In this document: one piece after another, positions 26,631 through 62,388 of the stretch | Position numbering within the stretch: position 1 is the stretch's first letter | How the letters are laid out: each line of letters opens with the position of its first letter | Notes under the pieces: generated by a model | Told to the model about the DNA's origin: nothing | Seen by the model: only the letters and a program-made list of their open reading frames with translations | The model's database searches: none | Assembly: GCF_008001235.1 (NCBI RefSeq) | Contig: NZ_CP040751.1 | Coordinates: 3,475,501 to 3,539,500 of the forward strand | Origin: Salidesulfovibrio onnuriiensis | Lineage (GTDB): Bacteria > Desulfobacterota > Desulfovibrionia > Desulfovibrionales > Desulfovibrionaceae | DNA: 64,000 bases | Direction: 5' to 3' | Translations under genes and position numbers: made by a program

Positions 26631-26749
26631 GGGTTCCCTTGTAACGTGTTACGGCCTTGGGGGAAAGAGCTATTCATACAAGGAAATCGGGCCGCTGGAG
26701 GCAGAGGATTTCCTTGCCTTTCCCGGCCCCAGGAGTCACATTCGAAAAC

Positions 26750-46930: not shown

Positions 46931-48919
46931 ATGCGCCACGCTCCAAGCTCTCCACCTTCAACAACGGCAGCGACCATGGCGGAAAACGATACCTGCACGC
47001 CCATGAACGACATCAAGGAAGGCGATCATTCCAATGATGCGCATTTCCGTTTCTGCATGTCCGAAGACGGCATGAAGCTCGGGGTGAACCGCTACTTCCC
47101 GCCCAAGGGTCATGGCGCCAAGCCCAGTGTCGAGCTTCTCAAGCAGCAGGTGGCCGCGGCCGGAGTCCGGCTGTCCGTGGACGAGGAGGCAGCCGAAAAG
47201 ATTCTCTCCCACCTGGCCGAGGCCCGGGAGATCACCGGCATCACCCTTGTGCGCGGCGTCGAGGTCCAGAACCCCGAAGACGCCCGCTTCGAAACCATCG
47301 GCAATCTCGATTACCCGGTTTTCCCGGGGTATAAATTCGCCGTCAAATATCCCCCGAAAAAGGCACGCCAGGGGGAAACCATCGACGGGAAGATCACCAA
47401 GCCCTCTTCCACCGACCCGCCCGAGGACATCAAGATCCAGGCCGGGGAAAACTGCGACTTCGATGCAACCGAAGGAACCTTCACCTCCCAGGTCTACGGC
47501 ATGGCCCGCGTGGACGAAAAGGAAGGCCTGGTCTGGGTGGACCCGCTCCTACGCATAGACAGCGACAATATCACGGTGACCAGCACCATATTCCACCAGG
47601 ACTGCTTCGGCAGGCCCCTCTCGGTCCAGGCCCTGGAAAAGGAACTGCTGGACCTGGGCGTGGCCATCGAAATCGATCCGGACGCCATCGACAAGTTCAT
47701 CCGCAAGGCCAGCGTAAGTCAGCAGCCGGTGCCCAACGCGGTACTGGTGCGCGGTCGCCATCCGGTGAACGGCAAGGACGGCTGGCTGGAATACCTGGTC
47801 AGCACGCGCGACGCCACCGGCACCGAGGACGAGAGCGGCAGGGTGGACTTCAAGGACCGGGGAGCCTACCCCTCGGTCGCTCCGGGGCAAACCATCGCCC
47901 GCCTGCACCCGCCCACCAAGGGCGAGGGCGGCATCGACATCTACGCCAAGACGCTCCCGGCCAACGAGGGGGTGGAGCTGCATGTCCATCCCGGCGAAAA
48001 CGTGGAGATCTGCGAAGACGGAGCAACCTTTACGGCCAACGCCACGGGGATCATGGTCCTGGACCGAAACGTGCTTTCCGTCTCCGAATGCCTGGTGCTG
48101 CCCGAGAACGTGGACATGAACACCGGCAACGTCAAGGTGGACACGGGCTCGGTCAAGATCATGGGCAATGTGCAGGCCGGATTCCATGTGGCAGCGCCCA
48201 AGAACATCATCGTCCAGGGCTCCATTGAAAGCGCGGAGGTGGAGGCCGGGGAAAACATCGAGGTCGGTGGCGGCATCCTCATGCCCGACGGAGGCATGGT
48301 CACGGCCCAGGGCAACATCACGGTCTCCTACATGAACAACGCCAGGGTGCACGCACACGGCAGCATCCTGTTCAAGAACGAAATTTCAAATTCCACGATC
48401 CAGGCGGACGGCTATATCCGGGCGGAAAAGGGCAAGGGCATCATCCAGGGAGGCTCGGCCATCTGCTCCCGCGGAATGGAGGTCAATGAGCTGGGCTCGG
48501 AACTGGGCGTCCAGACCATCGTGGGCATCAACCTGAGCACCAGCGACGACCGGGAAGCCATGGCCGAGCGCGCCAACCTGGCCAAGGAAATCAAGAGAAT
48601 CGACAAGGCCCTGGGGAACGGCAATCCCAAGGACATCCTCAGGCGCGTCCCCCCGGAAAAGCGCCCATCCATCGTCAAGGTGCTCAAGCACCGCATGGAA
48701 CTGGCGAAACGCTACAAGGAAGTGGCCGACGAGCTGGCCGAAAAGGCCGAGATTCGCCGCAACGAACTGAGGGGCGTCACCATCAAGGTTCTTCGGACCA
48801 TCCACGGCGGCACGGTCATCAAGATGGGCGGCCATACCGCGCGGGTCAAGCGAACCATGGATCGTTCCCTGATCTACTGGAGCGAAGAGGAGCAGAAGAT
48901 CGCCTTCGGCACGCTCTAA
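46931..48919 (+). CDS. FapA/DUF342-family flagellar assembly protein A
   Basis: Up to 662 aa; the start could instead be the ATG at 46976 (MAENDTCTP), as neither has a perfect ribosome site. DUF342 architecture: an N-terminal helical region, the beta-helix core (VNTGNVKVDTGSVKIMGNV..., IVQGSIESAEVEAGENIEVGGGILMPDGG..., HAHGSILFKNEISNSTIQADGYIRAEKGKGIIQGG), then a coiled coil (~560-610) and a short C-terminal domain. FapA relatives act in flagellar assembly; its position before flgD-flgE fits. A 13-bp terminator follows. Confidence 0.85.
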   Translation: MRHAPSSPPSTTAATMAENDTCTPMNDIKEGDHSNDAHFRFCMSEDGMKLGVNRYFPPKGHGAKPSVELLKQQVAAAGVRLSVDEEAAEKILSHLAEAREITGITLVRGVEVQNPEDARFETIGNLDYPVFPGYKFAVKYPPKKARQGETIDGKITKPSSTDPPEDIKIQAGENCDFDATEGTFTSQVYGMARVDEKEGLVWVDPLLRIDSDNITVTSTIFHQDCFGRPLSVQALEKELLDLGVAIEIDPDAIDKFIRKASVSQQPVPNAVLVRGRHPVNGKDGWLEYLVSTRDATGTEDESGRVDFKDRGAYPSVAPGQTIARLHPPTKGEGGIDIYAKTLPANEGVELHVHPGENVEICEDGATFTANATGIMVLDRNVLSVSECLVLPENVDMNTGNVKVDTGSVKIMGNVQAGFHVAAPKNIIVQGSIESAEVEAGENIEVGGGILMPDGGMVTAQGNITVSYMNNARVHAHGSILFKNEISNSTIQADGYIRAEKGKGIIQGGSAICSRGMEVNELGSELGVQTIVGINLSTSDDREAMAERANLAKEIKRIDKALGNGNPKDILRRVPPEKRPSIVKVLKHRMELAKRYKEVADELAEKAEIRRNELRGVTIKVLRTIHGGTVIKMGGHTARVKRTMDRSLIYWSEEEQKIAFGTL

Positions 48920-48948
48920 CGCCCCGCGCGATAAAATGAACTCCTCCG

Positions 48949-48975
48949 CGTAACCTTTGCCGCATCGGCTCCGTC
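48949..48975 (+). promoter_or_regulatory. ECF-type promoter motif 1 (upstream of a short RNA)
   Basis: CGTAAC (48949-48954), 17-bp spacer, CGTC (48972-48975). One base from the TGTAAC seen at the other five sites. It lies 36 bp before the terminator stem at 49011. Confidence 0.45.
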
Positions 48976-48981
48976 TACATT

Positions 48982-49043
48982 TGTAGCAGCATTGTATTAA
49001 TGCACCTTCTAAAAGCACCTTTTTCACAAAAGGTGCTTTTTTT
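48982..49043 (+). ncRNA. Candidate small RNA between fapA and the sigma gene
   Basis: Promoter motif 1 would start transcription near 48982, and the terminator at 49011-49043 would end it, giving ~60 nt. It contains a GCATT-GTATT-AATGC hairpin (~48990-49004) before the terminator stem. No ORF. Entirely inferred from promoter and terminator. Confidence 0.35.
49011..49043 (+). terminator. Terminator after fapA
   Basis: Perfect 13-bp stem (49011-49023 with 49028-49040), loop TCAC, then a T run into TATTTA. Confidence 0.95.
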
Positions 49044-49053
49044 ATTTATCGAA

Positions 49054-49082
49054 TGTAACCACTTCAGACTTTGCACCGACTT
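49054..49082 (+). promoter_or_regulatory. ECF-type promoter motif 2
   Basis: TGTAACC at 49054, 17-bp spacer after TGTAAC, CGACTT at 49077-49082. It starts 11 bp after the fapA terminator T run. Confidence 0.55.
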
Positions 49083-49119
49083 TAATGCATTTAATAAAAA
49101 TATTAATATTAAATTACAT

Positions 49120-49148
49120 TGTAACCTTATTACCAAACCAAACGTCTA
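49120..49148 (+). promoter_or_regulatory. ECF-type promoter motif 3
   Basis: TGTAACC at 49120, 17-bp spacer after TGTAAC, CGTCTA at 49143-49148. CGTC is the classical ECF -10 core. Confidence 0.55.
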
Positions 49149-49336
49149 TGACTATGGAAAGATATTTTTGAAACATTAATACAAATTAAACCATTCAAAT
49201 TTATTTAACCTCTAAAAATCTATAATCACTACACATAAAAATTATTTAATTTTTCTCATGGATGTTTTCATTTCTCGATTCGTACCACTCTATGAAAGAG
49301 ACAACAAACTTCGCAAACAAGGTTTTATGAAAACAA

Positions 49337-49885
49337 ATGGCAGAAAGTATTCATCTCGAATCATTCTTTGATGAAAACAACATCAAGCAGAATTGGGATG
49401 CTCTTGTAGAGAAATATGCATCATCCATATATGGATACCTGCATCACTACTGCAAGGCTCACATGAACGGATTGAAAGAAGATGATATATGCGACATCAC
49501 GCAAAATGTATTTCTCAAGCTCGTGAAAGATGATTTCAGGCTTTTACGACGCTACGACCCGAAAAAAGGTTCTTTCTCAACCTGGCTTGCCGTCCTGACC
49601 CGCTCCACGGCGCTGGACTACCTGCGCGCAAGAGCGAGGAACCACGTCCCCCTGGAGGACTATCAGGACAAACTGCAGGCAGAGGAACAAGGGCCGCGCC
49701 TCCAGGTGAATTATCCCACGGGAGTGCTCACCGAACGGCAGCAGAGCGTTCTTCACCTCCTCTTCGAGAAGGACCTGGACCCGGCCGAGGTGGGCCGGCT
49801 CATGGGGGTCAAGACCCAGACGGTCCGCAGCATCAAGCACCAGGCGCTGGACAGGCTCAGGGCCCATTACGGAGTGACGGCGTAG
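49337..49885 (+). CDS. RNA polymerase sigma factor, ECF-type
   Basis: 182 aa. Region 2 spans ~20-100 (YASSIYGYLHHYCKAHM, then DDICDITQNVFLKLVKDDF, and GSFSTWLAVLTRSTALDYLRARAR, the region 2.3/2.4 helix). Region 4 ~128-178 (LTERQQSVLHLLFEKDLDPAEVGRLMGVKTQTVRSIKHQALDRLR, HTH). No anti-sigma is adjacent. The first ~75 codons and the leader are AT-rich and switch to GC-rich near 49580. No Shine-Dalgarno. Placed between fapA and flgD, and preceded by two promoter motifs shared with the second sigma cassette. Confidence 0.88.
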   Translation: MAESIHLESFFDENNIKQNWDALVEKYASSIYGYLHHYCKAHMNGLKEDDICDITQNVFLKLVKDDFRLLRRYDPKKGSFSTWLAVLTRSTALDYLRARARNHVPLEDYQDKLQAEEQGPRLQVNYPTGVLTERQQSVLHLLFEKDLDPAEVGRLMGVKTQTVRSIKHQALDRLRAHYGVTA

Positions 49886-49947
49886 ACGAAAGCGCCACGC
49901 CAGGAACATACAAGGGACGGAGTTCCCGCACTCACAGGAGGTATTCC

Positions 49948-50253
49948 ATGGACGGAATCAAGCTCTTTGGCAACGGTTTGACCATTGCAGCCACCGGACA
50001 GGCGCAAAAGGCCGCTTCCGGGCAGTCGCAGGACAACGGCTTTGCCGGTTGCCTGGACAAGGCCCTGGAGCAGGAGCGGGATTGCGAAGCCGCTTCGGGC
50101 CAGCAGGCCGCGGGAATCTGCAACAGGGAACTGATGGAACTGAGGGCCCGTTTCGACGGGCAGGCCATGCAGCCCCCGGCGCATGTCATCGAGCGCGCAC
50201 AATCGCTGGTGAATGACGAAGGGGAAGTGGCGGCCCACACGTTCACGGTCTGA
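49948..50253 (+). CDS. Small hypothetical protein in the flagellar cluster
   Basis: 101 aa, MDGIKLFGNGLTIAATGQAQKAASG..., ACAGGAGG 6 bp upstream. The C-terminal half is amphipathic helical (ELMELRARFDGQAMQPPAHVIERAQSLV). Two cysteines. It lies between the sigma gene and flgD; the usual hook-length protein FliK of such operons is not seen here, and this protein is too short for it. Function unknown. Confidence 0.65.
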   Translation: MDGIKLFGNGLTIAATGQAQKAASGQSQDNGFAGCLDKALEQERDCEAASGQQAAGICNRELMELRARFDGQAMQPPAHVIERAQSLVNDEGEVAAHTFTV

Positions 50254-50426
50254 TCCCGCCGCAAAGGGATCAAAATTTCGGACGGAGTGCCATACGCACC
50301 CCGTCCCGGGCGGAAAGGCCGCCCTCTGCGAACGGTTGTCTCTTTCAAACACCGGCAGAAGTCTGCCCGCCCTGGGCATTGGGCCCGGGGCAGCGGACCC
50401 TGTCTCGACCGAAGGAGGCAACCGTT

Positions 50427-51104
50427 ATGTATACCAGCAGCGCAAGTTACCTGAACAGCGTCTATACCTCTTCCACCACGTCGTGGGATACCGAAGAGTC
50501 GTCCACCGATCTCGGCCAGGACGAATTCCTGCAGCTCTTCGTGGCCCAGCTGGAAAACCAGGATCCCCTGGACCCGGTGGACGACAGCGAATCCATCGCC
50601 CAGATGGCCGAGTTCTCCAGCCTGGAGCAGCTCACCAACATCAATTCCCAGATCAGCGACCTGATCGACACCATCAACACCCAGACCCTGAACACGGCCG
50701 TGAGCTACATCGGCAAGAGTGTCGTGGCCTCCGGCTACTCCATGAGCAAGGAAGGGGAAACCATCAGCGACGTCACCTACACCGTTCCCGTCGATGTGGA
50801 GGACCTCACCGCCCACATCATCGACGAGGACGGCAGCATCGTGAACAGCATCGACCTCGGCGCACACGACGCGGGCGAATACGATTTCTCCTGGGACGGC
50901 ACCGGATCGGACGGGGAGGAACTCGAAGACGGCCTTTACTCCATCGCCTTCACGGCCACCAACTCCGAGGGCGAATCGGTTTCCATTTCCACCATGGTCA
51001 GCGGCGTTGTGTCGGGGGTTTCCCAATCCAGCGGCTCCACCCTGCTGACCCTTGAGGACGGCCGTCAGGTCTACCTGTCGAACGTCTACGAAGTTACCGC
51101 ATAA
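50427..51104 (+). CDS. flgD: Flagellar hook-cap protein FlgD
   Basis: 225 aa from ATG 50427 (GAAGGAGG upstream). The conserved N-terminus LGQDEFLQLFVAQLENQDPLDPVDDSESIAQMAEFSSLEQL is diagnostic. Central FlgD Ig-like and tudor-like domain: YDFSWDGTGSDGEELEDGLYSIAFTATN. It caps the growing hook and is required for FlgE polymerisation. First of the contiguous hook operon flgD-flgE-flgK-flgL-fliD. Confidence 0.96.
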   Translation: MYTSSASYLNSVYTSSTTSWDTEESSTDLGQDEFLQLFVAQLENQDPLDPVDDSESIAQMAEFSSLEQLTNINSQISDLIDTINTQTLNTAVSYIGKSVVASGYSMSKEGETISDVTYTVPVDVEDLTAHIIDEDGSIVNSIDLGAHDAGEYDFSWDGTGSDGEELEDGLYSIAFTATNSEGESVSISTMVSGVVSGVSQSSGSTLLTLEDGRQVYLSNVYEVTA

Positions 51105-51128
51105 AACAAAAAATTTCAGGAGGATACC

Positions 51129-52730
51129 ATGAGTCTTACAGGATCGCTTTATTCCGGCATCACTGGCCTGACCGCCCACAGCCAGGCCATCTCCGTGGTC
51201 GGCAACAACCTGGCAAACACCAGCACCATCGGGTTCAAGGGTTCCACCATGCAGTTCGAGGACCTCTTCTACTCGTACGTGAACACGGCAAGCGGCGTGG
51301 ACCAGATGGGCCACGGCGTGGCCACCTCGGCCATCATGACCGACTACTCGCAGGGCCCCTACGAATCCTCCACCGAGGTGACGGACATGGCCCTGGGCGG
51401 CGAAGGTTTCTTCACCGTGCATGACCCGAGCACCGGCGACGAGTACTACACCCGCGCGGGCAACTTCCGTTTTGACGACGACGGCTACCTGGTAACCCCG
51501 GCGGGCCTGCGCGTGCAGGGCTGGGAAGTGGTGGACGGCGAAAGCACCTCGTCCGGGCTGACCCAGATCACCGGCACGCCCCAGGACATCCGCCTGGAGA
51601 ACTTCCAGTCCCCGCCCGAAGCCACCAGCGAGGTGAGTTTCGTGCTCAACCTGGATTCGGACAGCGACGACAACGCGGCAGTGGCCACCAACCCGTGCTT
51701 CTCCATGTTCCAGTACTGGGACGGCTCCGAGGACACCCCGCTTTCGGACTCCCGCTACGCCTACCAGACCACCATCTCGGTCTACGACGAAAACGGCACG
51801 GCAACGGACCTGACCGTCTACTTCGACCCGGTCGACGACAGCAGCGTCGCCAGCCAGTCCGGCGGCTACCAGGTCTGGGAATACGTCGTCACCATCCCGC
51901 CCAGCGCGGACGGCAGGACCCTGGACGGCCAGTCCCTGGGCACTACCTCTGCGGGCGGCGTGCTCATGATCGGCACTCTGACCTTCAACACCGCGGGCAA
52001 CCTGGTGGGCCAGAGCGCCTTCACCCTGGCCAGCGGCGCATCCGGCGACATGAAGGACCTGAGCAACTGGACACTGGCCGATTTCTCCGACGACGGTCTG
52101 CCCATCATGACCGCCAACTTCTCCGGGGCCTCCAACGCCAGCGCCACGAACCAGATAAACTCAACCAGCTTCTCCATCGACTTCGGCCTCTCCACGGCCG
52201 ACCTGATCACCAACAACGGCTGGGAGGCGGGCAGCGTCTCCAACGCCTCGCTCATCGGCAGCACCTACGCAAACATCCCCAACATGGATGCCCTGGACAT
52301 TGCGGCCGACGCCACCACCTCCTACGACACGAGCTCCTCCACCCTGACCCAGCAGCAGGACGGCTATTCCGCCGGTTTCCTGCAGAGCCTGACCGTGAGC
52401 AGCGACGGCATCATCACCGGCAACTATTCCAACGGCCAGGTGCTGGACCTCTATGCGGTGACCCTTTCCCGCTTCGACAACAAGTACGGCCTGGAGCACG
52501 AGGGAGGGAACCTGTTCTCGGCCACCCGCGATTCGGGCCAGGCCATCACGGGCACGGCCAACACCAGCACCTTCGGATCCGTGGCCGCCAACACCCTGGA
52601 GCAGTCCAACGTGGACACCGCCACGGAAATGGTGCGGCTGATCACCCTGCAGCGCGGCTTCCAGTCCAACAGCAAGGTCATCACCACGGCCGACACCCTG
52701 CTCAGCGAAGTCATTGCGCTGAAGCGCTAG
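51129..52730 (+). CDS. flgE: Flagellar hook protein FlgE
   Basis: 533 aa, CAGGAGG upstream. N-terminal D0 signature (LYSGITGLTAHSQAISVVGNNLANTSTIGFKGS) and C-terminal D0 (EQSNVDTATEMVRLITLQRGFQSNSKVITTADTLLSEVIALKR). Long variable domains between. Forms the hook; follows flgD by 24 bp and precedes flgK by 19 bp. Confidence 0.96.
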   Translation: MSLTGSLYSGITGLTAHSQAISVVGNNLANTSTIGFKGSTMQFEDLFYSYVNTASGVDQMGHGVATSAIMTDYSQGPYESSTEVTDMALGGEGFFTVHDPSTGDEYYTRAGNFRFDDDGYLVTPAGLRVQGWEVVDGESTSSGLTQITGTPQDIRLENFQSPPEATSEVSFVLNLDSDSDDNAAVATNPCFSMFQYWDGSEDTPLSDSRYAYQTTISVYDENGTATDLTVYFDPVDDSSVASQSGGYQVWEYVVTIPPSADGRTLDGQSLGTTSAGGVLMIGTLTFNTAGNLVGQSAFTLASGASGDMKDLSNWTLADFSDDGLPIMTANFSGASNASATNQINSTSFSIDFGLSTADLITNNGWEAGSVSNASLIGSTYANIPNMDALDIAADATTSYDTSSSTLTQQQDGYSAGFLQSLTVSSDGIITGNYSNGQVLDLYAVTLSRFDNKYGLEHEGGNLFSATRDSGQAITGTANTSTFGSVAANTLEQSNVDTATEMVRLITLQRGFQSNSKVITTADTLLSEVIALKR

Positions 52731-52749
52731 CAAACCGGAGGATTGATCC

Positions 52750-54837
52750 ATGATCTCGTCCCTCTATTACACGGGATTGCTCTCCCTGCAGAATTTCCAG
52801 GGAGCCATATCCATCCACGGCAACAACATCTCCAACGTGGATACGACCGGGTACACCCGGCGTACCGTGGAGTTTACCTCCCTCCCCTCGGTGCAGACCG
52901 CCGTGGGGAGGGTGGGAACCGGATCCACCGTGGACCGGATCACCCGTCATCTCAACGAATACCTGGAAAGCCAGTACAACGAGAAAATGGGGGGGCTGAC
53001 CAAGTGGAGCACCGCATCCGAGTATCTCTCCAGCCTGGAGGCCCTGTTCACCCAGGGAGAGACCACCGGGATCAGCGCTTCGCTGGCCAACTTCTGGGCC
53101 GCCTGGGAAGACCTTTCCTCGGCACCGGGCGAAACCACCCAGCGCACCACGCTCGTCTCCGAAACCGACACGCTGATCTCCCTCCTCGCCAGCACGGCCG
53201 AGGACCTGGAATACCAGCAGCTGGAAATGGAACAGGCCATCAGCGAGGAGGTGGACGAGATCAACGACATCCTCGAGGACCTGGCCGCGCTCAACGCCCA
53301 GATCCCGGGGCAGACAGACAACCTCGAACTGCTCGACACCCGCGACTACCTGGTGCGCGCCCTGGCGCAACGGGTGGATGTGCAGACCATAGAGCAGGAA
53401 GACGGCCAGATCACGGTGCTCACCGGCGAGGGCCTTTCCCTGGTGGACGGGGACAAGGCGTACACCTTCAGCTACGAAAGCGCCCAGTCCTCATCCTCGC
53501 TCTATCCCACCTCGGACTTTGACGGCTCGATCTACTTTGAAGGCTCCTCCAACCAGGAATTCACCATCGAGGTCGTCAACGGGGGCTATGCCTCGGGCGG
53601 CGGTTCCGCAGCCACCTTCAAGGTCTCCCTGGACGGCGGCAAGACATGGCTCACGGACGACGACGGCGAACCGGTCTACTACACGGCCGGGGACACGGAC
53701 AACCGGATCGAGATAGGCGGCGTGGAAATCTGGTTCGGCGACGAATCGGATTCCGGGACCATGGCGGGCACCGAACTGACGGCGGGTGACCAGTTCACCA
53801 TCGTGGCCAAGTCGGCCGTCTACTGGGAAAGCAACAGCTCGGGCAAGGTCAACGTGACCCCCTTTGCCGACACCACGAGCAGCGGCAGCCGGTTGAGCGG
53901 GGGCTCCCTGGCCGGGATGCTCATCGCCCGCGACAGCTACCTGGGTGACTACACCGAGCAGCTCGACGCCTTCGCCTCGTCCCTGATCTGGGAAGTGAAC
54001 TACGCCCACAGCCAGGGGGCCGGGCTGGATCACTGGGACTACGTGCTGGGCTCCTACCAGGCCCAGTTCACGGACCGCCCCATCAGCGAGAGCGGTCTGG
54101 ATTTCGAGGACTACATCGAGGAAGGCTCCTTTTCCCTGGCCATCTACGACGAGGATACCGGCGAGTTGCTGAGCAACGCCTCCGTTGACTTCTCGTCCAT
54201 CTCGCCGGGCATCTCCTACTTCGACCCCACCGTGCATTCCATGGAAGACGTGTGTGATGCCATCGAGGCCACCTTCCCCGGCCAGATCGACGCCGAGATC
54301 ATTGACGGCAGACTCTCTCTGGAAGCGGCCGACGGCACGGAGTTCGAATTCGCCGGGGACAGCTCCGGCCTGCTGGCGGGGCTGGGCATCAACACCTACT
54401 TCGACGGACACGACGCCGCGTCCATCTCCATCAACACATACATCGAGGCGGACTCCGAACGGGTCAACGCCGGCCACGTCAACGGCGCGGGCGAGGTCAA
54501 CGAAGGCGACAACACCATAGCCCTGGCCCTGGCCGAACTGGCCACCAAGGAAGTCACCATCACCACCATCTACGGCAGCGTGGAGCAGGATCTCCAATCC
54601 TACTTCGACAGCCTGGTTTCCGAGGTGGGCGGCGACGTATCCACCGCGTCCACCAACGCGGCCTATTACAGCACCCTGGCCGAGGACCTGGCGGAACAGC
54701 AGGAAGAGGTTTCCGGCGTCAACATCGACGAAGAGCTGACCATGCTCATGCGCTATCAGCAGTCCTACGCGGCTGCGGCCAAGATGATCACCACGGCCAG
54801 CGAGCTCTTCGACATCGTGCTCGCGCTCAAGAGCTAG
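52750..54837 (+). CDS. flgK: Flagellar hook-associated protein 1 (FlgK)
   Basis: 695 aa. D0 N-terminus YTGLLSLQNFQGAISIHGNNISNVDTTGYTRRTVEF; C-terminus SGVNIDEELTMLMRYQQSYAAAAKMITTASELFDIVLALKS. Between are large insert domains; residues ~270-360 contain SLDGGKTW (293-300), an Asp-box pattern, then AGDQFTI. Longer than typical FlgK (~550). Forms the hook-filament junction. Confidence 0.95.
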   Translation: MISSLYYTGLLSLQNFQGAISIHGNNISNVDTTGYTRRTVEFTSLPSVQTAVGRVGTGSTVDRITRHLNEYLESQYNEKMGGLTKWSTASEYLSSLEALFTQGETTGISASLANFWAAWEDLSSAPGETTQRTTLVSETDTLISLLASTAEDLEYQQLEMEQAISEEVDEINDILEDLAALNAQIPGQTDNLELLDTRDYLVRALAQRVDVQTIEQEDGQITVLTGEGLSLVDGDKAYTFSYESAQSSSSLYPTSDFDGSIYFEGSSNQEFTIEVVNGGYASGGGSAATFKVSLDGGKTWLTDDDGEPVYYTAGDTDNRIEIGGVEIWFGDESDSGTMAGTELTAGDQFTIVAKSAVYWESNSSGKVNVTPFADTTSSGSRLSGGSLAGMLIARDSYLGDYTEQLDAFASSLIWEVNYAHSQGAGLDHWDYVLGSYQAQFTDRPISESGLDFEDYIEEGSFSLAIYDEDTGELLSNASVDFSSISPGISYFDPTVHSMEDVCDAIEATFPGQIDAEIIDGRLSLEAADGTEFEFAGDSSGLLAGLGINTYFDGHDAASISINTYIEADSERVNAGHVNGAGEVNEGDNTIALALAELATKEVTITTIYGSVEQDLQSYFDSLVSEVGGDVSTASTNAAYYSTLAEDLAEQQEEVSGVNIDEELTMLMRYQQSYAAAAKMITTASELFDIVLALKS

Positions 54838-54863
54838 GGCGCGGCAGCAAGGAGGGAATGACC

Positions 54864-56345
54864 ATGCGCGTCACCCAGAACATGATTTTCAGTACGTCCA
54901 TCTCCAACATCAACAACGCCCTGTCCGAGGTCATGCGGCTCAACGCCCAGAACTCGGCCCAGAAAAAAATCCTGAGCCCGTCCGACGACCCCTCCGGCTA
55001 CAAGCAGGTGCTGGACCTGCGGGCCTACACCTCGGCGATGGAGCAGTACGAGGACAATATCGACACGGCCAATGGCTGGCTCAACCTGGCGGACGAAATG
55101 CTGCTGCAGGCCAGCGAACTCCTGACCAGCAGCAAGGAACTGGCCACCCAGGCGGCCACCGGCACCCTGACCGCGGACCAGCGCCAGTCCCTGGCATCCC
55201 AGGCCCGCCAGAACCTGGCCAGCATGATCTCCATCGCCAACACCGAGTACGTGGGCCAATCCATCTTCGCCGGGCACAAGATCGACGACAACGCCTACGA
55301 GCAGATCCTGGGAGTGACCGTCAACGACGAGAACCTGTCGGCCGACGACATCGTCAGCGTGACGGGCGACGCGGAGTACACCATCTACGTCCGAACCCTG
55401 ACCGCGGGAGTTGTGGGCACGGACGCCATCGACTACGAATATTCCGCGGACGGCGGCGAGACCTGGACCCAGGCCACCCTGGCCGCGGGCGACACCGTGC
55501 TGGACTGCGGCACGGCCCAGCTGGAACTGGCCGCGGGAACCAATGTTCAGGCCAACGGCGACACCAGCTTTTATCTGCGTCCGGCGGCGGTCTACCTGGG
55601 GGACACCAACGACGGCATCAACATCACCAAGTCCGGTGCGGCCGCCATTGAGGCCTCGGCCGACGGCGTGTTCTCGGGCGACATCACCGTGCGCATCGAC
55701 AGCGGCACGGACATCAACGGCGCCGTGGAATATTCCTTCAGCCTGGACGGCGGCAGCACCTGGGTGGAAGGCAACGTGACCTCCAATGCCCAGCTGCCCC
55801 TGCCCGGCGGATTCCTGAACCTGACCTCGGGCGCGGGCACGGCAATCGCGGCGGGCGACCAGTTCCAGATCACGCCTGCGGACGCGGACATCTCCATCAA
55901 CGTCAACCGCTACAGCGAGGTGGTGGTCAACAACGTGGGCCTGGAAATCTTCGGAGGGCTCTACGACGCCGACGGAGACGGCACGGCCACGGAGGCCCTG
56001 CCGGAAACGCCCGAGGAAAACCTGTTCGAGGCCATGAGCGACCTCATCGGCTATCTGGAAGTGAACGACACGGACGGCATAGGCGAGTGCATCGACAGGA
56101 TCAAAGCGGCCCAGGAACGCCTGGAGACCTATGCCGCGGACGTGGGCGCCCGAGAAAACAGGCTGGAATCCCAGGCGAGCATCCTCACGGTGCAGAAGAG
56201 CAACGCCACAAGCCAGATATCCCAGATCGAGGACGCGGACCTGAGCACCCTGCTCGCGGAGCTGTCCAAGGCGGAATACATCTATGAATCCGTGCTCAGC
56301 TCCTCTTCCAAGATCATGAGCATGACCCTGCTCAGCTATCTCTAG
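54864..56345 (+). CDS. flgL: Flagellar hook-associated protein 3 (FlgL)
   Basis: 493 aa from the ATG at 54864, 8 bp after GGAGG (the ATG at 54858 is too close to the ribosome site). N-terminal MRVTQNMIFSTSISNINNAL and C-terminal ERLETYAADVGARENRLESQ and EIDADLSTLLAELSKAEY blocks are the flagellin-like D0/D1 regions. The ~185-residue middle insert (~160-345) carries two Asp boxes, SADGGETW (194-201) and SLDGGSTW (293-300), and AGDQFQI, homologous to the FlgK insert. Usual FlgL is ~300 aa. Confidence 0.94.
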   Translation: MRVTQNMIFSTSISNINNALSEVMRLNAQNSAQKKILSPSDDPSGYKQVLDLRAYTSAMEQYEDNIDTANGWLNLADEMLLQASELLTSSKELATQAATGTLTADQRQSLASQARQNLASMISIANTEYVGQSIFAGHKIDDNAYEQILGVTVNDENLSADDIVSVTGDAEYTIYVRTLTAGVVGTDAIDYEYSADGGETWTQATLAAGDTVLDCGTAQLELAAGTNVQANGDTSFYLRPAAVYLGDTNDGINITKSGAAAIEASADGVFSGDITVRIDSGTDINGAVEYSFSLDGGSTWVEGNVTSNAQLPLPGGFLNLTSGAGTAIAAGDQFQITPADADISINVNRYSEVVVNNVGLEIFGGLYDADGDGTATEALPETPEENLFEAMSDLIGYLEVNDTDGIGECIDRIKAAQERLETYAADVGARENRLESQASILTVQKSNATSQISQIEDADLSTLLAELSKAEYIYESVLSSSSKIMSMTLLSYL

Positions 56346-56357
56346 GGAGGAACGGCC

Positions 56358-58097
56358 ATGAGCGATTACTCCTACGACTACATCAACAGCTATTACGAGG
56401 GCTACTACGACACCGAGACCTACACGTCGGGCCAGATCACCTTTTCGGGGGTCTCCACCGGCACGGACTTCGACACCCTCATCGAGGGTCTGGTCTCGGC
56501 GGAAAGCTACACCCTGGACAACCTGGAGAACTGGAAATACCAGTGGGAAGCCAAGAACGAGGCCCTCAGCGACCTGAACACGGCGCTCATCAGTCTGCAG
56601 ACCGCCCTGGAAGACCTGGACACCCTGAGCGAGTTCTTTGCCAAGTCCGCCTCGGTCACGGATTCGAGCGCACTGTCCGTGAGCGTGGATGCCGACGCCC
56701 AGGAAGCAACCCACAACATCGTCATCAACCAGCTGGCCCAGAACGACATCTGGTTCAACACCGGCGCGGGCTATTCCGCCACCGACGAGGTGCTCACCTC
56801 CACGGGCGGCACCTTCGTGCTCGAATACGCGGGGGAATCCTACACCATCGATGTGGAGGCGGGAACAACCGTGAGCACCTTCGTCAACCTCATCAACAGC
56901 GACGCGGACCTGGACGACGGGGTGCGCGCCGCGCTGGTCAACGACGGGGACGAGTATCACCTGGAACTGCGGGGAATGGACCTGGGAGAGGACAACACCA
57001 TCTCCATCACCAGCTCCACCATCGCCTCCCTGGATCCCTCCAACTTCGAACAGACCCAGGTGGCCTGCAACTCCCAGATCAAGGTGGACGGATTTCCCAC
57101 GGCGGCGGACGAATGGATCGAACGGGATTCCAATTACATCGACGACGTGCTGGACGGCGTGGCCCTGACCCTGAAGGATACCACGGACAGCGGCGGCACC
57201 ACCATGACCGTGTCCGTGGACAACGACGCCATCGTGGAAAACGTGCAGACCTTCGTGGAGCAGTTCAACACGGTCATTTCCCTGATCCAGGAAATATCGA
57301 GCGTGGACTATGAATCCGACGAGGACGAACCCGAGGCCTCGGTCATGACCGGCAACTACGGCGTGGACATGGTCAACCAGAACCTCAAGGACGTCATCGC
57401 CACCCTGGGCCTGGGCTTCAGCTACTACGACAGCGACACAGGCGGGGGCGACTACTACTCGACCCTCTCCCAGCTCGGCATCACCACGGACGCGGACGAC
57501 AGCTCCGTGACCTTCGGACAGCTGCTCTTTGACGAGGAGGACTTCCTGGAGGCCCTGGAAAAGGACCCGGAAGGCGTGGCCATGGTCTTTTCCGCCAACG
57601 ACATCGCCGAAACCGATTCCACGGACTTCACGATTCTCTCCACGGTGGACGGGACCACCCAGCCCGGCGTTTACGACGTCGAGTACACCATGAGCGGCGG
57701 TGCCGTCGTCAGCGCCACCATCGGCGGGGAAACGTGCGCCATCAGCGGCGACGAAATAACCTGTATCTCCGGAGACGCTCTGGGCATGGCCCTCCGCGTG
57801 GACGACCTTACGGACGGGACCTATACGGGCTCCGTGGCCGTCAAGCGGGGCAAAATCCCGGAACTGGTCGAGTCCATCGACGAGATGTGCGACTCCCAAA
57901 ACGGCATATTGAACATTATCCAGGAAAACTATAATGACATTATCGACAGCATCGATGACAAAATAGACAACGAAGAAACCCGGTTGGAACAGTACGAATC
58001 CAGACTGCGCGACAAGTACAGCCGCCTGGAAACCACGCTGAGCGAATATTACAGTCTCCAGACGACGTTGGAAAGCCAGCTTGACCAGCTTGAATGA
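56358..58097 (+). CDS. fliD: Flagellar filament cap protein FliD (hook-associated protein 2)
   Basis: 579 aa, GGGAGG upstream. N-terminal FliD-like GVSTGTDFDTLIEGLVSAESYTLDNLENWKYQWEAKNEALSDLNTALISLQTAL, the FliD C domain (FVEQFNTVISLIQEISS..., GNYGVDMVNQNLKDVIATLGLGF) and a C-terminal coiled coil (DKIDNEETRLEQYESRLRDKYSRLETTLSEYYSLQTTLESQ). Caps the filament. The end overlaps the region from which the next gene is promoted. Confidence 0.93.
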   Translation: MSDYSYDYINSYYEGYYDTETYTSGQITFSGVSTGTDFDTLIEGLVSAESYTLDNLENWKYQWEAKNEALSDLNTALISLQTALEDLDTLSEFFAKSASVTDSSALSVSVDADAQEATHNIVINQLAQNDIWFNTGAGYSATDEVLTSTGGTFVLEYAGESYTIDVEAGTTVSTFVNLINSDADLDDGVRAALVNDGDEYHLELRGMDLGEDNTISITSSTIASLDPSNFEQTQVACNSQIKVDGFPTAADEWIERDSNYIDDVLDGVALTLKDTTDSGGTTMTVSVDNDAIVENVQTFVEQFNTVISLIQEISSVDYESDEDEPEASVMTGNYGVDMVNQNLKDVIATLGLGFSYYDSDTGGGDYYSTLSQLGITTDADDSSVTFGQLLFDEEDFLEALEKDPEGVAMVFSANDIAETDSTDFTILSTVDGTTQPGVYDVEYTMSGGAVVSATIGGETCAISGDEITCISGDALGMALRVDDLTDGTYTGSVAVKRGKIPELVESIDEMCDSQNGILNIIQENYNDIIDSIDDKIDNEETRLEQYESRLRDKYSRLETTLSEYYSLQTTLESQLDQLE

Positions 58098-58113
58098 TTT
58101 TTCTTCTTCCCCC

Positions 58114-58142
58114 TGTAACCGGTTCGACGCTGCGCCCGACAA
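58114..58142 (+). promoter_or_regulatory. ECF-type promoter motif 4 (second sigma gene)
   Basis: TGTAACC at 58114, 17-bp spacer after TGTAAC, CGACAA at 58137-58142, about 60 bp before the ATG at 58204. It lies just past the fliD stop. Confidence 0.65.
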
Positions 58143-58203
58143 ATGGTATGAACCGCCATGGACGGCCAATACCTACTGGACCGCAAAAGTGACTGAGACA
58201 GGG

Positions 58204-58785
58204 ATGAAGGGGAAGCAACTTTCGCCGGACACGGCTGTTGTTCAGGAGATCCTTGAGGGCAATGTCAACGCCTTCGAGACTCTGGTGAACAGGCACCAGG
58301 AGCATGTGTCGCGCATCGTGGGCAATCATGTGCCCTACCAGCGCGTGGACGAAGTGGTGCAGGCGGCGTTTGTCAACGCCTACCGGTCGTTGAACACCTT
58401 CCGGGGTGAAAAGCCGTTCCGGAACTGGCTTTCGAAGATAAGCGTCCGATGCTGCTACGACTTCTGGCGCGAGGAATACCGCTACCGGGAAACGCCGGTC
58501 AGCACCCTGGGGGCAGATCCCTGGGACATGCTCGACCGCCTGACCGCGAATCAGGCGCAGGAGGAATTTCTGGCCCAGGCGCAGCAGGAGGAAAACATCA
58601 AGCTGCTGGACTGGGCCCTGGACCAACTTTCCCCCGAGGACCGGATGGTGGTAACCCTCACGGCCCTGGAGGAAAAAAGCGTGGCCGAGGCAGCCCACCT
58701 GCTCGGCTGGACAAAGGTGAATGTGAAGGTCCGAGCGCATCGGGCCAGAAATAAACTAAAGAAAATCCTAAAACAGGCGATCTGA
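58204..58785 (+). CDS. RNA polymerase ECF sigma factor (second)
   Basis: 193 aa from ATG 58204. Region 2 ~15-100 (NVNAFETLVNRHQEHVSRIVG, RVDEVVQAAFVNAYRSLNTFRGEKPFRNWLSKISVRCCYDFWREE). Region 4 ~135-190 (LDQLSPEDRMVVTLTALEEKSVAEAAHLLGWTKVNVKVRAHRARNKLKKIL). Followed 16 bp later by a small membrane protein and then a CnrX-like sensor, a CnrYXH-like arrangement. A promoter motif at 58114 supports this start and argues against an earlier one inside fliD. Confidence 0.92.
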   Translation: MKGKQLSPDTAVVQEILEGNVNAFETLVNRHQEHVSRIVGNHVPYQRVDEVVQAAFVNAYRSLNTFRGEKPFRNWLSKISVRCCYDFWREEYRYRETPVSTLGADPWDMLDRLTANQAQEEFLAQAQQEENIKLLDWALDQLSPEDRMVVTLTALEEKSVAEAAHLLGWTKVNVKVRAHRARNKLKKILKQAI

Positions 58786-58801
58786 AATGGAGGGGAGAAC
58801 C

Positions 58802-59083
58802 ATGACGCATCGCTCAAGAACAACGATGGAAGCGCTGAGCGCCATCCACCGGACAAAGAGGCCGCCAAAGACGAACCCGAATCTCGTGTACGCCATCATG
58901 GGCGAAATCCGTACCCTGGATATCGAGCAGGCGCGGGACTTCATCCGCATAGCCTTCCCGTTTTCCGCGGTGGCGGGGATTGCCGCCATGGCGCTGTTCA
59001 TGCTGAGTTCGAACACGTCCCTCAGAGTCGAGGATATGCTGGTCTGCATGTACAACGGTGGCTCGCTCGTATTGGGAATGTAA
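58802..59083 (+). CDS. Small single-helix membrane protein, putative anti-sigma factor
   Basis: 93 aa from ATG 58802, GGAGGGGAG upstream. A ~48-residue cytoplasmic N-terminus with helix (LDIEQARDFIRI), one membrane helix (~49-69) and a short periplasmic tail. Position between an ECF sigma and a periplasmic sensor, and topology, match CnrY-type membrane anti-sigma proteins. No sequence homology is claimed; the role is inferred. Confidence 0.65.
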   Translation: MTHRSRTTMEALSAIHRTKRPPKTNPNLVYAIMGEIRTLDIEQARDFIRIAFPFSAVAGIAAMALFMLSSNTSLRVEDMLVCMYNGGSLVLGM

Positions 59084-59114
59084 GGGCCACGCCCGTATCA
59101 TTCAGGAGAAAGCG

Positions 59115-59540
59115 ATGCTGCAAAGCAAGAACTGGAAAGAATGGATCGCCGTATTGCTGCTTTTCGGCACCGGGGCCCTGGTGGGCGCCGGGATCATGCG
59201 GCTGTATATGGATAGATTTCCGCCGCCTCCCATTCCGGCCCCCGAGGAGCTCAAGGACAGGATCATCGGAAGGCTGGATACGGAACTGAACCTGACTTCG
59301 GAACAGTATGAAGCCATCACCGAGATATTCGAGGAGGGCTTCCGACGCTCCATGGAAATCCGCAAGCCCATCGACAAACAGATGGATGAACTGCTCGATG
59401 AACAGTACCGGCGGATCATGGCTCTCCTGACGCCGGAACAGCAGGAAAAATTCAAGGTGCTCCACGAACGGTTCGAAAAGCGGCGCAAGGCCTTCCACAG
59501 GCCGGGGCCACCACCGCCTCCGCCGCCTCTCATGGATTAA
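59115..59540 (+). CDS. CnrX/Spy-like periplasmic sensor (heavy-metal resistance family)
   Basis: 141 aa from ATG 59115 (CAGGAGA upstream). Membrane anchor ~10-28, then a periplasmic helical domain with two LTxxQ motifs, LTSEQ (60-64) and LTPEQ (105-109), as in Spy/CpxP/CnrX proteins. Pro-rich tails at both ends (PPPPIPAPEE; RPGPPPPPPP). Likely senses misfolding or metal in the periplasm and signals to the small membrane protein, freeing the sigma factor. This is inference from cassette order. Confidence 0.82.
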   Translation: MLQSKNWKEWIAVLLLFGTGALVGAGIMRLYMDRFPPPPIPAPEELKDRIIGRLDTELNLTSEQYEAITEIFEEGFRRSMEIRKPIDKQMDELLDEQYRRIMALLTPEQQEKFKVLHERFEKRRKAFHRPGPPPPPPPLMD

Positions 59541-59550
59541 ATGAAAAAAA

Positions 59551-59588
59551 GTCGCCGGGTTTGTAACCGCAAGGTTAAACCCGGCGAC
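59551..59588 (-). terminator. Long hairpin, terminator in the reverse direction
   Basis: Stem of ~16 bp with a 2-base bulge (59551-59568 with 59573-59588), loop GCAA. Read leftward it runs into TTTTTTT, as a minus-strand terminator; rightward it has no T run. No minus-strand gene ends here, so it may stop antisense transcription. It overlaps promoter motif 5. Confidence 0.5.
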
Positions 59589-59590
59589 AC
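59562..59590 (+). promoter_or_regulatory. ECF-type promoter motif 5
   Basis: TGTAACC at 59562, 17-bp spacer after TGTAAC, CGACAC at 59585-59590. It lies within the hairpin at 59551-59588, so it may be coincidental there. Confidence 0.35.
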
Positions 59591-59656
59591 TGATATTGAG
59601 AGAAGGCAGTCTACCCAACTGCTTTTGCAAACCCACCCTAATCCCTTCTTCCCCGC

Positions 59657-59688
59657 AGCCCCGCTACCCCGGCGGGGCTCACTTTTTG
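59657..59688 (+). terminator. Terminator of the sigma/sensor cassette
   Basis: Stem AGCCCCGC/GCGGGGCT (59657-59664 with 59672-59679) followed by CACTTTTTG. Ends just before promoter motif 6. Confidence 0.6.
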
Positions 59689-59717
59689 TGTAACCGGATC
59701 CAGTCCGCACCGGACTT
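59689..59717 (+). promoter_or_regulatory. ECF-type promoter motif 6 (spy-like gene)
   Basis: TGTAACC at 59689, 17-bp spacer after TGTAAC, GGACTT at 59712-59717, ~40 bp before the ATG at 59758. It shares TGTAACCGG-TC and GC-CC-GAC with motif 4, 20 matching bases of 27. Confidence 0.65.
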
Positions 59718-59757: not shown

Positions 59758-60282
59758 ATGAAGAAAACAAGCATCATCATAACCAGCATCATTCTGGTAT
59801 CCATGGCCTTCACCATGGCGCTGGCCATGGACAATATGGACGACCACGAGAAAATGCCCGCCCCGCCCCACCATGAGAAGATGAAGAAGGGCCCCCATCC
59901 GGCGGACCAGCTGGTGCAGGACCTGGAACGGCTCGGCCTGACCCAGGCCCAGAAAACGAAGATAGCCAAGCAGCTCAAGACGGAATGGGACACGATGCGG
60001 GAAATGCACGATGCCGTGCATGAAGACATGGAGGCCATGCGCCAGGCCCAGTTCCAGGGCAATGTGGACGCGGTCCGCGCCCTGAGCAAGAAAATGGCCC
60101 AGCAGCGGCAGGCCCACGATGTGGAACGCGCCGCAAGCATGGCCAAGATCCGGAGCGTGCTGACCGCGGAGCAATCCGCCAAGCTGGACATGATTCACCG
60201 GCAGTTCATGGAAAAGATGGAAAAGCAGCGTCCCCCCAAAAAAAGGATGAACATGGATTCCTGGATCCTGGAAAACATCTAG
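59758..60282 (+). CDS. Spy/CpxP-like periplasmic protein
   Basis: 174 aa, AAGGAG upstream. Signal peptide 1-23 (ending ALA), then a His/Met-rich segment (MDNMDDHEKMPAPPHHEKMKKGPHP, ~24-48) and a helical domain with LTQAQ (61-65) and LTAEQ (135-139), the LTxxQ motifs of Spy-type chaperones. Probably protects or buffers metal in the periplasm. It has its own promoter motif like that of the sigma gene and is terminated at 60314-60343. Confidence 0.85.
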   Translation: MKKTSIIITSIILVSMAFTMALAMDNMDDHEKMPAPPHHEKMKKGPHPADQLVQDLERLGLTQAQKTKIAKQLKTEWDTMREMHDAVHEDMEAMRQAQFQGNVDAVRALSKKMAQQRQAHDVERAASMAKIRSVLTAEQSAKLDMIHRQFMEKMEKQRPPKKRMNMDSWILENI

Positions 60283-60313: not shown

Positions 60314-60343
60314 GGCGCGCAGCTTCGGCTGTGCGCCTTTTTT
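60314..60343 (+). terminator. Terminator of the spy-like gene
   Basis: Stem GGCGCGCAG/CTGTGCGCC (60314-60322 with 60329-60337, one G-T wobble) then TTTTTT (60338-60343). The last T overlaps the convergent FliD-like stop. Confidence 0.85.
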
Positions 60344-62388
60344 CATCCCTTCTTGCTCACCAGGCCGGAATTGAGCCCGGCATCCAGCAACGATTCCAGG
60401 TTGGATTCGGACTGGTCGAACAGGTCCAGCAACTGGTTGCTCTTTTCCAGCTCCAGCTCGGTGCGCGGGGTCGGCTTGCCGTAAATGGGGTCGGTGATGG
60501 AGGCCTCGTTGATGAGCAGGGACGAAGTCCCGGCGTCCAGCACGGACTGGGTTTCGTCCAGCCAGCGGGTCAGCAGCCCGTCCTCCTCGTCCAGCAACAG
60601 GCTCTGGGTGCGTTCCGGGTCCGCGCCCAGGGACTCGTAGAAAGCGTCATGGGAGAACCAGAGCGTCTTTTCCAGGCCGGTTTCCCGCAGGCCGATGGAT
60701 TGCAGGTCCGTGGCGTTGTCGGTCACGGGATCCCGCCAGAGCGCATCCGTCTCCTCGCGCAGGATATCCAGATTCTTGACCAGCAGGGAGCGAAGGTCGT
60801 TGTAGGAGGTGATCACGTCCGAAAGCCGGTCCTGCATCTCCTGCAGCGGCTCCACCACGGACAGGGGGATGGTTTCGGAGAAATTCTCCTCGATCTCCAC
60901 CTGCAACCGGCCCTGATCCAGCACGATGGCCCCCGCGGCCCGCTCATAGATCCTGCCGCCGGTGCTCACCTCGGTGTCCGAACCGGGCTGGGCCGTGGCC
61001 CCGAGCCCCAGGGCCGTGAGCGGATATTCCGTGGTGAAGGTCACGCTGTGGTCGCCGCTTCCGTCGTCGGTGAGGGCAATGGCCGTTCCGGCCTCGGCGT
61101 CGGTCTTGCTGGTCGCCAGCTGGATGAGCCTGCCCGTGTCGCTCTTGATGGCGTAGTAGGTCGTGTCCTCGGCAAGGCCGGTGGGCAGGGTGCCGTCCGT
61201 GGAAAGGGTCACCTGCGCCCCGGTGACGATGGCGTCGTACTGCTCCTCGCTGACCTCGAGATACCGGACGCCCAGATCGTCATTGACTGTGAAGGAACCG
61301 TCCCCCACGTGCACGCCCCCGGTGATGGACAGCCGCTCGCCCAGCTTGGGATCAAGGGCCTCGAACCGGAGCTGTACCCCGTCCATGTACAGGAGCTGGT
61401 CCTGCACCTGGTCGGAGAGCATGCGGTTGGAAACCACTTCGGCCGAGAACATGGACTGGCTGCCGCCTGCGGCGTCGGCCACCTTGTTGAGCAGGTCCTC
61501 CCAGGTGTCATCCGGATCCACGGAAAAGGTGAAGGTGCCGCTCTGCTCGCCCATGCTCCAGTCGATGGAGTGGACGCCCGCGTTCAGGGTGACGGCGGCG
61601 TTGGGATCGAAGGTATCGGAATAGAACAGGGAGGCCTTGCCCGCACGGCCGCCGGAAAGCAGGTAGGTGTCCAGGTCGGCCGGCTCAGTGGGCACGTTCA
61701 CGGCCGAGAAATCGAACTCGTTCAGCAGGTGCCCCTGGGTATCCGAAAGCGACAGATCCTGCTCCGCGCTTCCGGCATTGACCGCCAGCAGCAGCGAGGT
61801 GCCCTCGGCGTTGAGATCCGGAACCCGAAGACCCGGGGAAAGCTGAAACACCCTTTCGGCCTGCACCTGGAGCGTGCTGCCGTTGATGGCCTCGGCCACC
61901 GCATCGATGAGATCGCCTTTGGTCCAGTCCGCTTCCACGTCGATGGAGAATTCCTCGCTGTCGTCGCCCAGGGCGACCTCGAACTTGTATTCCCCTTCCG
62001 TGAGATCGGCGTCCGCCTCGGCATCCAGTCCCCGGGAAAAGAACTTGTAGTAGCGGACCGCCTCGCCCTCCTTGCTCACGTCGGCCGAAACATACTTCTC
62101 GAAATCGTCGCCGCCCACCACCAGCCGCCCCTTGAACAGGGGATCGGACTTGGGCCACTGGAAGGATTCCAGGCTGTTCTTGAACAGATTGAGGGTGTTT
62201 TCCAGCCGGATGGCCAGGGATTCGCCGGTCTTGTGGAATTTGGAATAAAGCTGGGCGTTCTGAAACTTGTCCTGCCACACAGAACCCTCGAAAGAGCCTT
62301 GCAGGGCCCTTTGCAGGGTAAAGTGGAGACTGGCGGATTCGTTATCCGCAGTCCCCAGTGTCAGGACTGTCTTCAGGTCGTCGCTCAA
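60343..62388 (-). CDS. FliD-like flagellar hook-associated protein, divergent
   Basis: 681 aa, TTG start (62386-62388) with AGGAGA upstream. Central region carries insert-type domains (DGTLPTGLAEDTTYYAIKSDTGRLIQLATSKTDAEAGTAIALTDDGSGDHSVTF, a repeat common in phage and surface proteins). The C-terminal ~180 residues resemble FliD_C (IPLSVVEPLQEMQDRLSDVITSYNDLRSLLVKN..., SLGADPERTQSLLLDEEDGLLTRWLDETQSVLDAGTSSLLI). It lacks the N-terminal FliD_N. Overlaps truA by 47 bp. Function uncertain; a filament cap or adaptor is possible. Confidence 0.7.
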   Translation of the reverse strand: MSDDLKTVLTLGTADNESASLHFTLQRALQGSFEGSVWQDKFQNAQLYSKFHKTGESLAIRLENTLNLFKNSLESFQWPKSDPLFKGRLVVGGDDFEKYVSADVSKEGEAVRYYKFFSRGLDAEADADLTEGEYKFEVALGDDSEEFSIDVEADWTKGDLIDAVAEAINGSTLQVQAERVFQLSPGLRVPDLNAEGTSLLLAVNAGSAEQDLSLSDTQGHLLNEFDFSAVNVPTEPADLDTYLLSGGRAGKASLFYSDTFDPNAAVTLNAGVHSIDWSMGEQSGTFTFSVDPDDTWEDLLNKVADAAGGSQSMFSAEVVSNRMLSDQVQDQLLYMDGVQLRFEALDPKLGERLSITGGVHVGDGSFTVNDDLGVRYLEVSEEQYDAIVTGAQVTLSTDGTLPTGLAEDTTYYAIKSDTGRLIQLATSKTDAEAGTAIALTDDGSGDHSVTFTTEYPLTALGLGATAQPGSDTEVSTGGRIYERAAGAIVLDQGRLQVEIEENFSETIPLSVVEPLQEMQDRLSDVITSYNDLRSLLVKNLDILREETDALWRDPVTDNATDLQSIGLRETGLEKTLWFSHDAFYESLGADPERTQSLLLDEEDGLLTRWLDETQSVLDAGTSSLLINEASITDPIYGKPTPRTELELEKSNQLLDLFDQSESNLESLLDAGLNSGLVSKKG

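Follow-up and report, generated by a model that had tools for sequence, protein, structure and literature searches.

In the window, the 64,000-nucleotide (nt) stretch of Salidesulfovibrio onnuriiensis contig NZ_CP040751.1 analysed here (positions 3,475,501 to 3,539,500, forward strand), an extracytoplasmic function (ECF) sigma factor, called sigma2, probably reads promoters of the form TGTAACC-N16-CGAC. It would thereby drive its own operon, a gene for a Spy-like chaperone, a second ECF-like sigma gene (sigma1) and a predicted small RNA (sRNA) of ~94 nt, sRNA-a; we give this reading a probability of about 0.75. That sigma2 reads these sites and that the RNA is made we infer from sequence. In the proposed mechanism, two small partners encoded downstream would hold sigma2 at the membrane. 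Once released, sigma2 would switch on its own operon, the Spy-like periplasmic chaperone, the sigma1 gene and sRNA-a, whose C-rich core could pair with the Shine-Dalgarno and start-codon region of the sigma2 messenger RNA (mRNA) and limit sigma2 synthesis.

Searching both strands of the window for (T/C)GTAACC-N16-(C/G)G(A/T)C revealed six exact matches, all on the plus strand (48949, 49054, 49120, 58114, 59562 and 59689), and no seventh on either strand. An earlier sequence-only reading had proposed a shared ECF promoter motif at these positions, and the scan confirms its six sites in both coordinates and pattern; its count of 20 identical bases among 27 between 58114 and 59689 held on recounting by eye. 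The site at 48949 starts with CGTAACC rather than TGTAACC. The remaining TGTAAC occurrences of the window lack the second element, as it had said, although the one given as 26643 lies at 26640. Under a first-order Markov model fitted to the window, 300 draws gave a mean of 0.1 matches and a maximum of 2, against the 6 observed. Since the pattern was derived from the six sites themselves and is hence post hoc, conservation serves as the independent test.

The sites are conserved. G021, the nearest relative found for the window's genome (G000), keeps five of the six (48949, 49120, 58114, 59562 and, as TGTAACT, 59689) and lacks 49054; its two sigma genes lie ~9 kb apart, as in the window. The genus holds 23 sigma2 orthologues of at least 43% identity, the window's included, and YGTAACC-N16-CGAY is present upstream on the same strand in all 22 others, 20 of them examined over longer stretches and the remaining two via L049 and the genus-wide motif positions. 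For 21 of these the form is TGTAACC, at most about 850 nt upstream; G026 has CGTAACC at -1041. The position is similar in G021 (-90), G017 (-89), G014 (-107) and G009 (-84). The background probability per orthologue is ~2e-4, a slight overestimate computed with 74 genus matches where the table sums to 70, and a joint probability would mislead because the orthologues are related. The upstream motif in 22/22 supports predicted autoregulation of sigma2, and with it the earlier proposal of an autoregulating ECF factor with a small local regulon.

Beyond the order, a contig scan supplied five loci, with the exact motif in three (L023, L025 and L026), a spacer one base shorter in L024 and no motif found at L027, a 28% match to sigma2. 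A close sigma2 occurs in 64 of 297 genomes of the phylum. Among 29 other phylum loci, TGTAAC(C/T)-N16-(C/G)GA(C/T) lies upstream in 11, against 0/29 for the reversed control, and 7 further loci show a relaxed form that deviates in spacing or in the first base, counted without a control. The phylum set partly overlaps the contig-scan set, with L204 and L197 sharing site sequences with L025 and L024.

The sigma2 protein exceeds the TIGR02937 cut-off and contains regions 2 and 4 only, which places it among ECF factors; its sequence matches in the PDB include E. coli sigma-E (3.2e-18) and CnrH (5.1e-15). It heads a conserved three-gene operon. Gene calling recovered both neighbours at 18 of 20 orthologue loci and missed one or both in L095 and L097; the pair is present as well in L023 and L024. 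The first neighbour, of 93 amino acids (aa), has no Pfam family and no meaningful PDB sequence match, the query having carried an upstream start. A protein of 97-103 aa with a hydrophobic segment was called beside sigma2 in the same 18/20 proportion of loci, and its counterparts in L024 and L023 measure 107-108 aa. A downstream protein of ~100 aa with one hydrophobic segment, as in modules of the CnrYXH/SigAb type, is thus present, and its place and size suggest an anti-sigma factor. The second neighbour, of 141 aa, reaches 27.1 bits for PF13801 against a cut-off of 29.2, just under the Pfam cut-offs of Metal_resist and LTXXQ, and P0001 carries a precomputed PF13801 annotation. Its AlphaFold2 (AF2) model is all-helical (predicted local distance difference test score, pLDDT, 81; predicted template modelling score, pTM, 0.47). 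By analogy with CnrYXH and SigAb, this protein may be the sensor, of envelope or metal stress. In the leaders of distant sigma2 orthologues (L094-L106), between the ECF site and the sigma gene, several sequences share a CGATCTCC...GGCCGCGCC hairpin stretch, possibly a second leader RNA or sRNA; the same leaders contain a CTTGTGG...GGCATG RpoD-like promoter.

The Spy-like protein combines an LTXXQ match (PF07813, 38.4 bits, cut-off 24.3) with a hydrophobic N-terminus of signal-peptide type; its matches to the Spy and CpxP equivalogs are weak and below their cut-offs. The site before its gene recurs in G021 as TGTAACT-N16-GGAC, in G017 as TGTAACC-N16-CGAC and in G014 as TGTAACC with a spacer one base longer. 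Spy-like genes lie between motif and sigma in L025 and L026, and at 8 of the 29 phylum loci a regular expression picked out a frame with an LTXXQ-like motif and a hydrophobic N-terminus that begins 75-113 nt downstream of a strict or relaxed site. Given this recurrence of Spy-like genes behind the motif, the system probably responds to damaged envelope proteins or to metal stress. Small EF-hand proteins also start shortly after the motif, at L108:978-1403 (minus strand) in G009 and L106:3912-4385 (plus strand) in G030, and their genes are a recurrent further candidate target of sigma2.

Between the operon and the Spy-like gene lies a conserved RNA element, sRNA-a, found in four carrier genomes (G000, G021, G017 and G014). 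GTAAC-N17-CGAC stands in front of it in all four, the base after GTAAC being C in two, T in G017 (CGTAACT) and G in G014 (TGTAACG). Every carrier has the 5' hairpin, a C-rich core that does not vary and a terminator that hardly differs, and three of the eight hairpin pairs have changed on both sides yet are kept. An ECF-type promoter, a stand-alone terminator and a conserved unpaired region, the hallmarks of an ECF-dependent trans-acting sRNA, are therefore all recognizable in the four sequences. The 24-nt core occurs, with at most 3 mismatches, in 3 of 247 order genomes, G014 as the fourth carrier lying outside these 247. R1, a model built from the four carriers, gives strong matches in those four alone of 36 genus genomes (E <1e-31; next 3e-6), and Rfam gives no match at gathering score in the window or in L087, L088 and L089. 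Identity to the window's sigma2 is 67-85% for the proteins of the other carriers; in G009, whose orthologue ranks next (61%), the sigma2 locus has neither the RNA nor a neighbouring Spy-like gene. The sRNA that the sequence-only reading had raised as a possibility thus becomes a strong predicted candidate at ~59594-59687, accompanied by a weaker one at ~48982-49047. An inverted repeat spanning the sRNA-a promoter recurs in G021 with one change and is not present in G017 or G014; it may serve to terminate antisense transcripts that arise from the minus-strand gene 60343-62388.

In 4/4 carriers, the sRNA-a core is predicted to pair with the stretch from -15 to +10 that spans the sigma2 start codon, at -21.4 to -22.8 kcal/mol, against -3.7 to -13.9 kcal/mol for 17 sigma2 orthologues without the RNA. 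The same core segment is used in all carriers, facing different mRNA sequences in the two genome pairs, and sigma2 is the best-pairing start among the operon starts tested (2 to 4 per genome). That this pairing constitutes negative feedback is a tentative proposal, less likely than not, and the weakest step of the explanation.

The sigma1 gene has a close orthologue (86%) in one of 59 other genomes searched, G021, and its upstream sites recur there only. None of 24 distant sigma1 homologues has YGTAACC-N16-CGAY on the same strand, although two show looser matches. TGTAACC-N16-CGAT occurs divergently, 268-289 nt upstream, at three distant homologues (L075, L076 and L077, in G034, G024 and G035). 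The simplest reading is a cascade in which sigma2 would activate sigma1. The comparative evidence supports the earlier suggestion that one or both ECF factors autoregulate and drive a small local regulon, and it points to sigma2 as the likely reader of the motif. As with the 24 homologues, neither the third ECF-like gene of the genome (L002) nor its FliA-like gene (L006) has a same-strand site within 1000 nt upstream.

The fapA stop precedes the 48949 site by 29 nt. A FapA-like end adjoins sigma2 in G017 and G014, with the sigma2 promoter 21 and 27 nt after it, respectively; in the window, sigma1 and flagellar genes (named by eye) lie within 48917-58204 and part fapA from sigma2 by 9 kb. The position of 48949, together with the FapA-like ends before the sigma2 promoter in G017 and G014, suggests that this site may descend from an old sigma2 promoter. 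The stretch that follows it, sRNA-b, may represent another short RNA, a weaker candidate than sRNA-a, and its terminator hairpin is kept in G021. The 49054 site, missing there, is probably not functional. Elsewhere, TGTAACCTTTTC(T/G)TTGCCAAAAGCGAT precedes TetR-like regulators (named by eye) in three relatives, at L114, L131 and L132. The coordinates of all features are collected in the table.

Table. Features of the predicted sigma2 regulon in the window, with window coordinates and strand.
Feature	Position	Strand	Remarks
Motif site after fapA, predicted sRNA-b promoter	48949..48975	+	Conserved in G021 as TGTAACC-N16-CGTC
sRNA-b candidate	48982..49047	+	Terminator stem 49011-49040; or fapA terminator
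Motif match, probably non-functional	49054..49080	+	Not conserved in G021
Predicted sigma2-type promoter of sigma1	49120..49146	+	Conserved in G021
sigma1, ECF-like sigma factor, 182 aa, predicted sigma2 target	49337..49885	+	Sigma70_r2/r4
Predicted sigma2 operon promoter	58114..58140	+	Exact TGTAACC-N16-CGAC; transcription start expected near 58147
sigma2, ECF sigma factor, 193 aa	58204..58785	+	Both Sigma70_r2 and Sigma70_r4_2 exceed their cut-offs
Predicted anti-sigma, a small protein (93 aa) with a single hydrophobic segment	58802..59083	+	CnrY/AabA size and topology
Helical protein, 141 aa, N-terminal hydrophobic segment, CnrX-like sensor candidate	59115..59540	+	Metal_resist/LTXXQ-like
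Inverted repeat across -35 and -10 of sRNA-a promoter	59551..59588	.	T-run on minus-strand side; read in sequence
Predicted sigma2 promoter of sRNA-a	59562..59588	+	Exact motif; not directly before a protein gene
sRNA-a, predicted ~94-nt RNA	59594..59687	+	5' hairpin, invariant C-rich core, intrinsic terminator 59657-59687
Predicted sigma2 promoter of Spy-like gene	59689..59715	+	Exact TGTAACC-N16-GGAC
Spy/CpxP-like periplasmic protein	59758..60282	+	LTXXQ and Metal_resist over cut-off

Several results weigh against the proposed explanation. The genome-wide search that the sequence-only reading had proposed as a check returned no excess, with 15 matches in 3.89 Mb against 19 for the reversed pattern, and TGTAACC-N16-CGAY across the 36 genus genomes gave 70 matches against 99 reversed. 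In most of the distant orthologues, 155-1041 nt separate the site from the sigma gene, and an RpoD-like promoter is often closer; 11 of the 29 phylum loci have no credible site, counting among them L207, whose match lies inside a Spy-like frame, and L199, with just 186 nt upstream. A fold search with the sensor candidate found no clear relative. The four sRNA-a carriers fall into two closely related pairs, and of the eight base pairs in the hairpin, two are each disrupted in a single sequence. For the pairing, shuffles of the same leader give z of just -1.4 to -2.2; called starts pairing equally well or better number 2/122, 2/39, 3/23 and 0/34 in the carriers; and the 11-nt core seed has no shared match at a gene start, its shared matches lying inside coding sequence. 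With a motif no commoner genome-wide than its reversed control, its meaning must rest on clustering and conservation, and the lack of a genus-wide excess leaves placement before sigma2 as the signal. Six of the 15 genome matches fall within 10.8 kb, where the density of the other nine predicts 0.025. We strongly disfavour the view that the matches are chance or non-promoter repeats clustered by a post hoc pattern: fitted to its sites and without excess as the pattern is, it is conserved in all 22 other genus orthologues and at several loci outside the order. It is also unlikely that sigma1 and sigma2 read the same motif as a mutually cross-activating pair, with 48949 and 49120 autoregulatory for sigma1. 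Sites before sigma1 do lean to a CGTC -10 element (48949 and 49120; CGTC and CGAC in G021) against CGAC/GGAC on the sigma2 side, which could mean two readers of overlapping preference. The distant sigma1 homologues, however, lack the same-strand motif, three of them having a divergent one, and the C-terminal helix of region 4 differs, being roughly NVKVRA.RA..KLK in the sigma2 group and TVRSIKHQALDRLR in sigma1. The evidence favours sigma1 as a target of sigma2 over sigma1 as another reader.

The nature of sRNA-a admits two further explanations. Its place between two genes of one regulon, with a terminator at its end, would suit a leader or operon terminator region between the sensor and Spy-like genes rather than a separate regulator. 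This is improbable given that the RNA keeps a predicted promoter and a terminator to itself in all four carriers, with a core that stays identical while the sigma2 proteins diverge; moreover, the Spy-like gene of G014 is served by a separate motif-like site and does not start until ~130 nt past the sRNA terminator. Roughly even odds attach to the possibility that sRNA-a acts mainly on other mRNAs, from envelope or metal genes, in the manner of RybB/MicA or SabS, its complementarity to sigma2 reflecting a G-rich Shine-Dalgarno sequence. Many G-rich starts pair with a C-rich core, shuffling gives modest z-scores, and known ECF sRNAs mostly act on other targets (PMC8103513, PMC12153292). Against it, the four carriers separate cleanly from the 17 non-carriers, sigma2 pairs best among the tested operon starts, and no exact-seed match common to the carriers occurs at a gene start elsewhere.

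On the sigma2 reading, the analysis yields a testable promoter motif, a predicted regulon whose Spy-like output is also seen outside the order, and a candidate sRNA whose pairing site is defined. Were the feedback to hold, the RNA would directly restrain an ECF sigma factor, alongside the anti-sigma factor and independently of it. Speculatively, Desulfobacterota may share a phylum-wide ECF envelope-stress system, in which one lineage gained a self-limiting sRNA loop and a second sigma in a cascade below. Its parts would be the sigma factor, a CnrY-like anti-sigma, a CnrX-like sensor, a Spy output and TGTAACC-N16-CGAC promoters, with an sRNA that the sigma factor would switch on and that might, equally doubtfully, block sigma translation by pairing over the start codon. 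Among the titles and abstract openings that our searches of open-licence PMC listed, none describes an ECF regulon of sulfate reducers or an sRNA driven by an ECF factor in them.

The module of ECF factor, CnrY-like and CnrX-like proteins appears to be of a known kind, and the putative sRNA arm is a variant and its most interesting part. The Cpx system has an output of the Spy/CpxP family and an sRNA near a Spy-like gene, both resembling the arrangement here, under two-component control in place of an ECF sigma factor. RybB feeds back indirectly on sigma-E, and the CnrX sensor of CnrYXH belongs to a Metal_resist-like family. E. coli sigma-E couples an ECF factor to an sRNA arm (RybB, MicA and MicL) and periplasmic chaperones (PMC8103513); it differs in its RseA-type anti-sigma, many targets and another promoter. 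CnrYXH of Cupriavidus metallidurans comprises an ECF sigma and a membrane-bound two-protein anti-sigma complex and drives metal efflux (PMC9045368, PMC8103513). The sigma2 module resembles it in size, order and topology, with two small predicted membrane partners and a Metal_resist-like sensor candidate; it differs in its predicted output of Spy-like genes and an sRNA, and in the PDB sequence search sigma2 matches E. coli sigma-E slightly better than CnrH. In SigAb-AabA-AabB of Acinetobacter, the text at hand describes an ECF sigma gene followed by genes for a 107-aa anti-sigma with one transmembrane segment and a predicted periplasmic helical protein, in an autoregulated operon with a small direct regulon (sigAb, relA and the sRNA sabS) and the motif GTCAAC-N16-18-CGTT (PMC12153292). 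Likened by layout, the two systems share gene size, order and topology and, as predicted for sigma2, an autoregulated operon and an sRNA within a small regulon; SigAb has another motif, and that text lists no Spy gene among the direct targets and reports no feedback pairing. Beside SigAb/SabS, the present case suggests that small CnrYXH-like modules may recruit sRNAs repeatedly.

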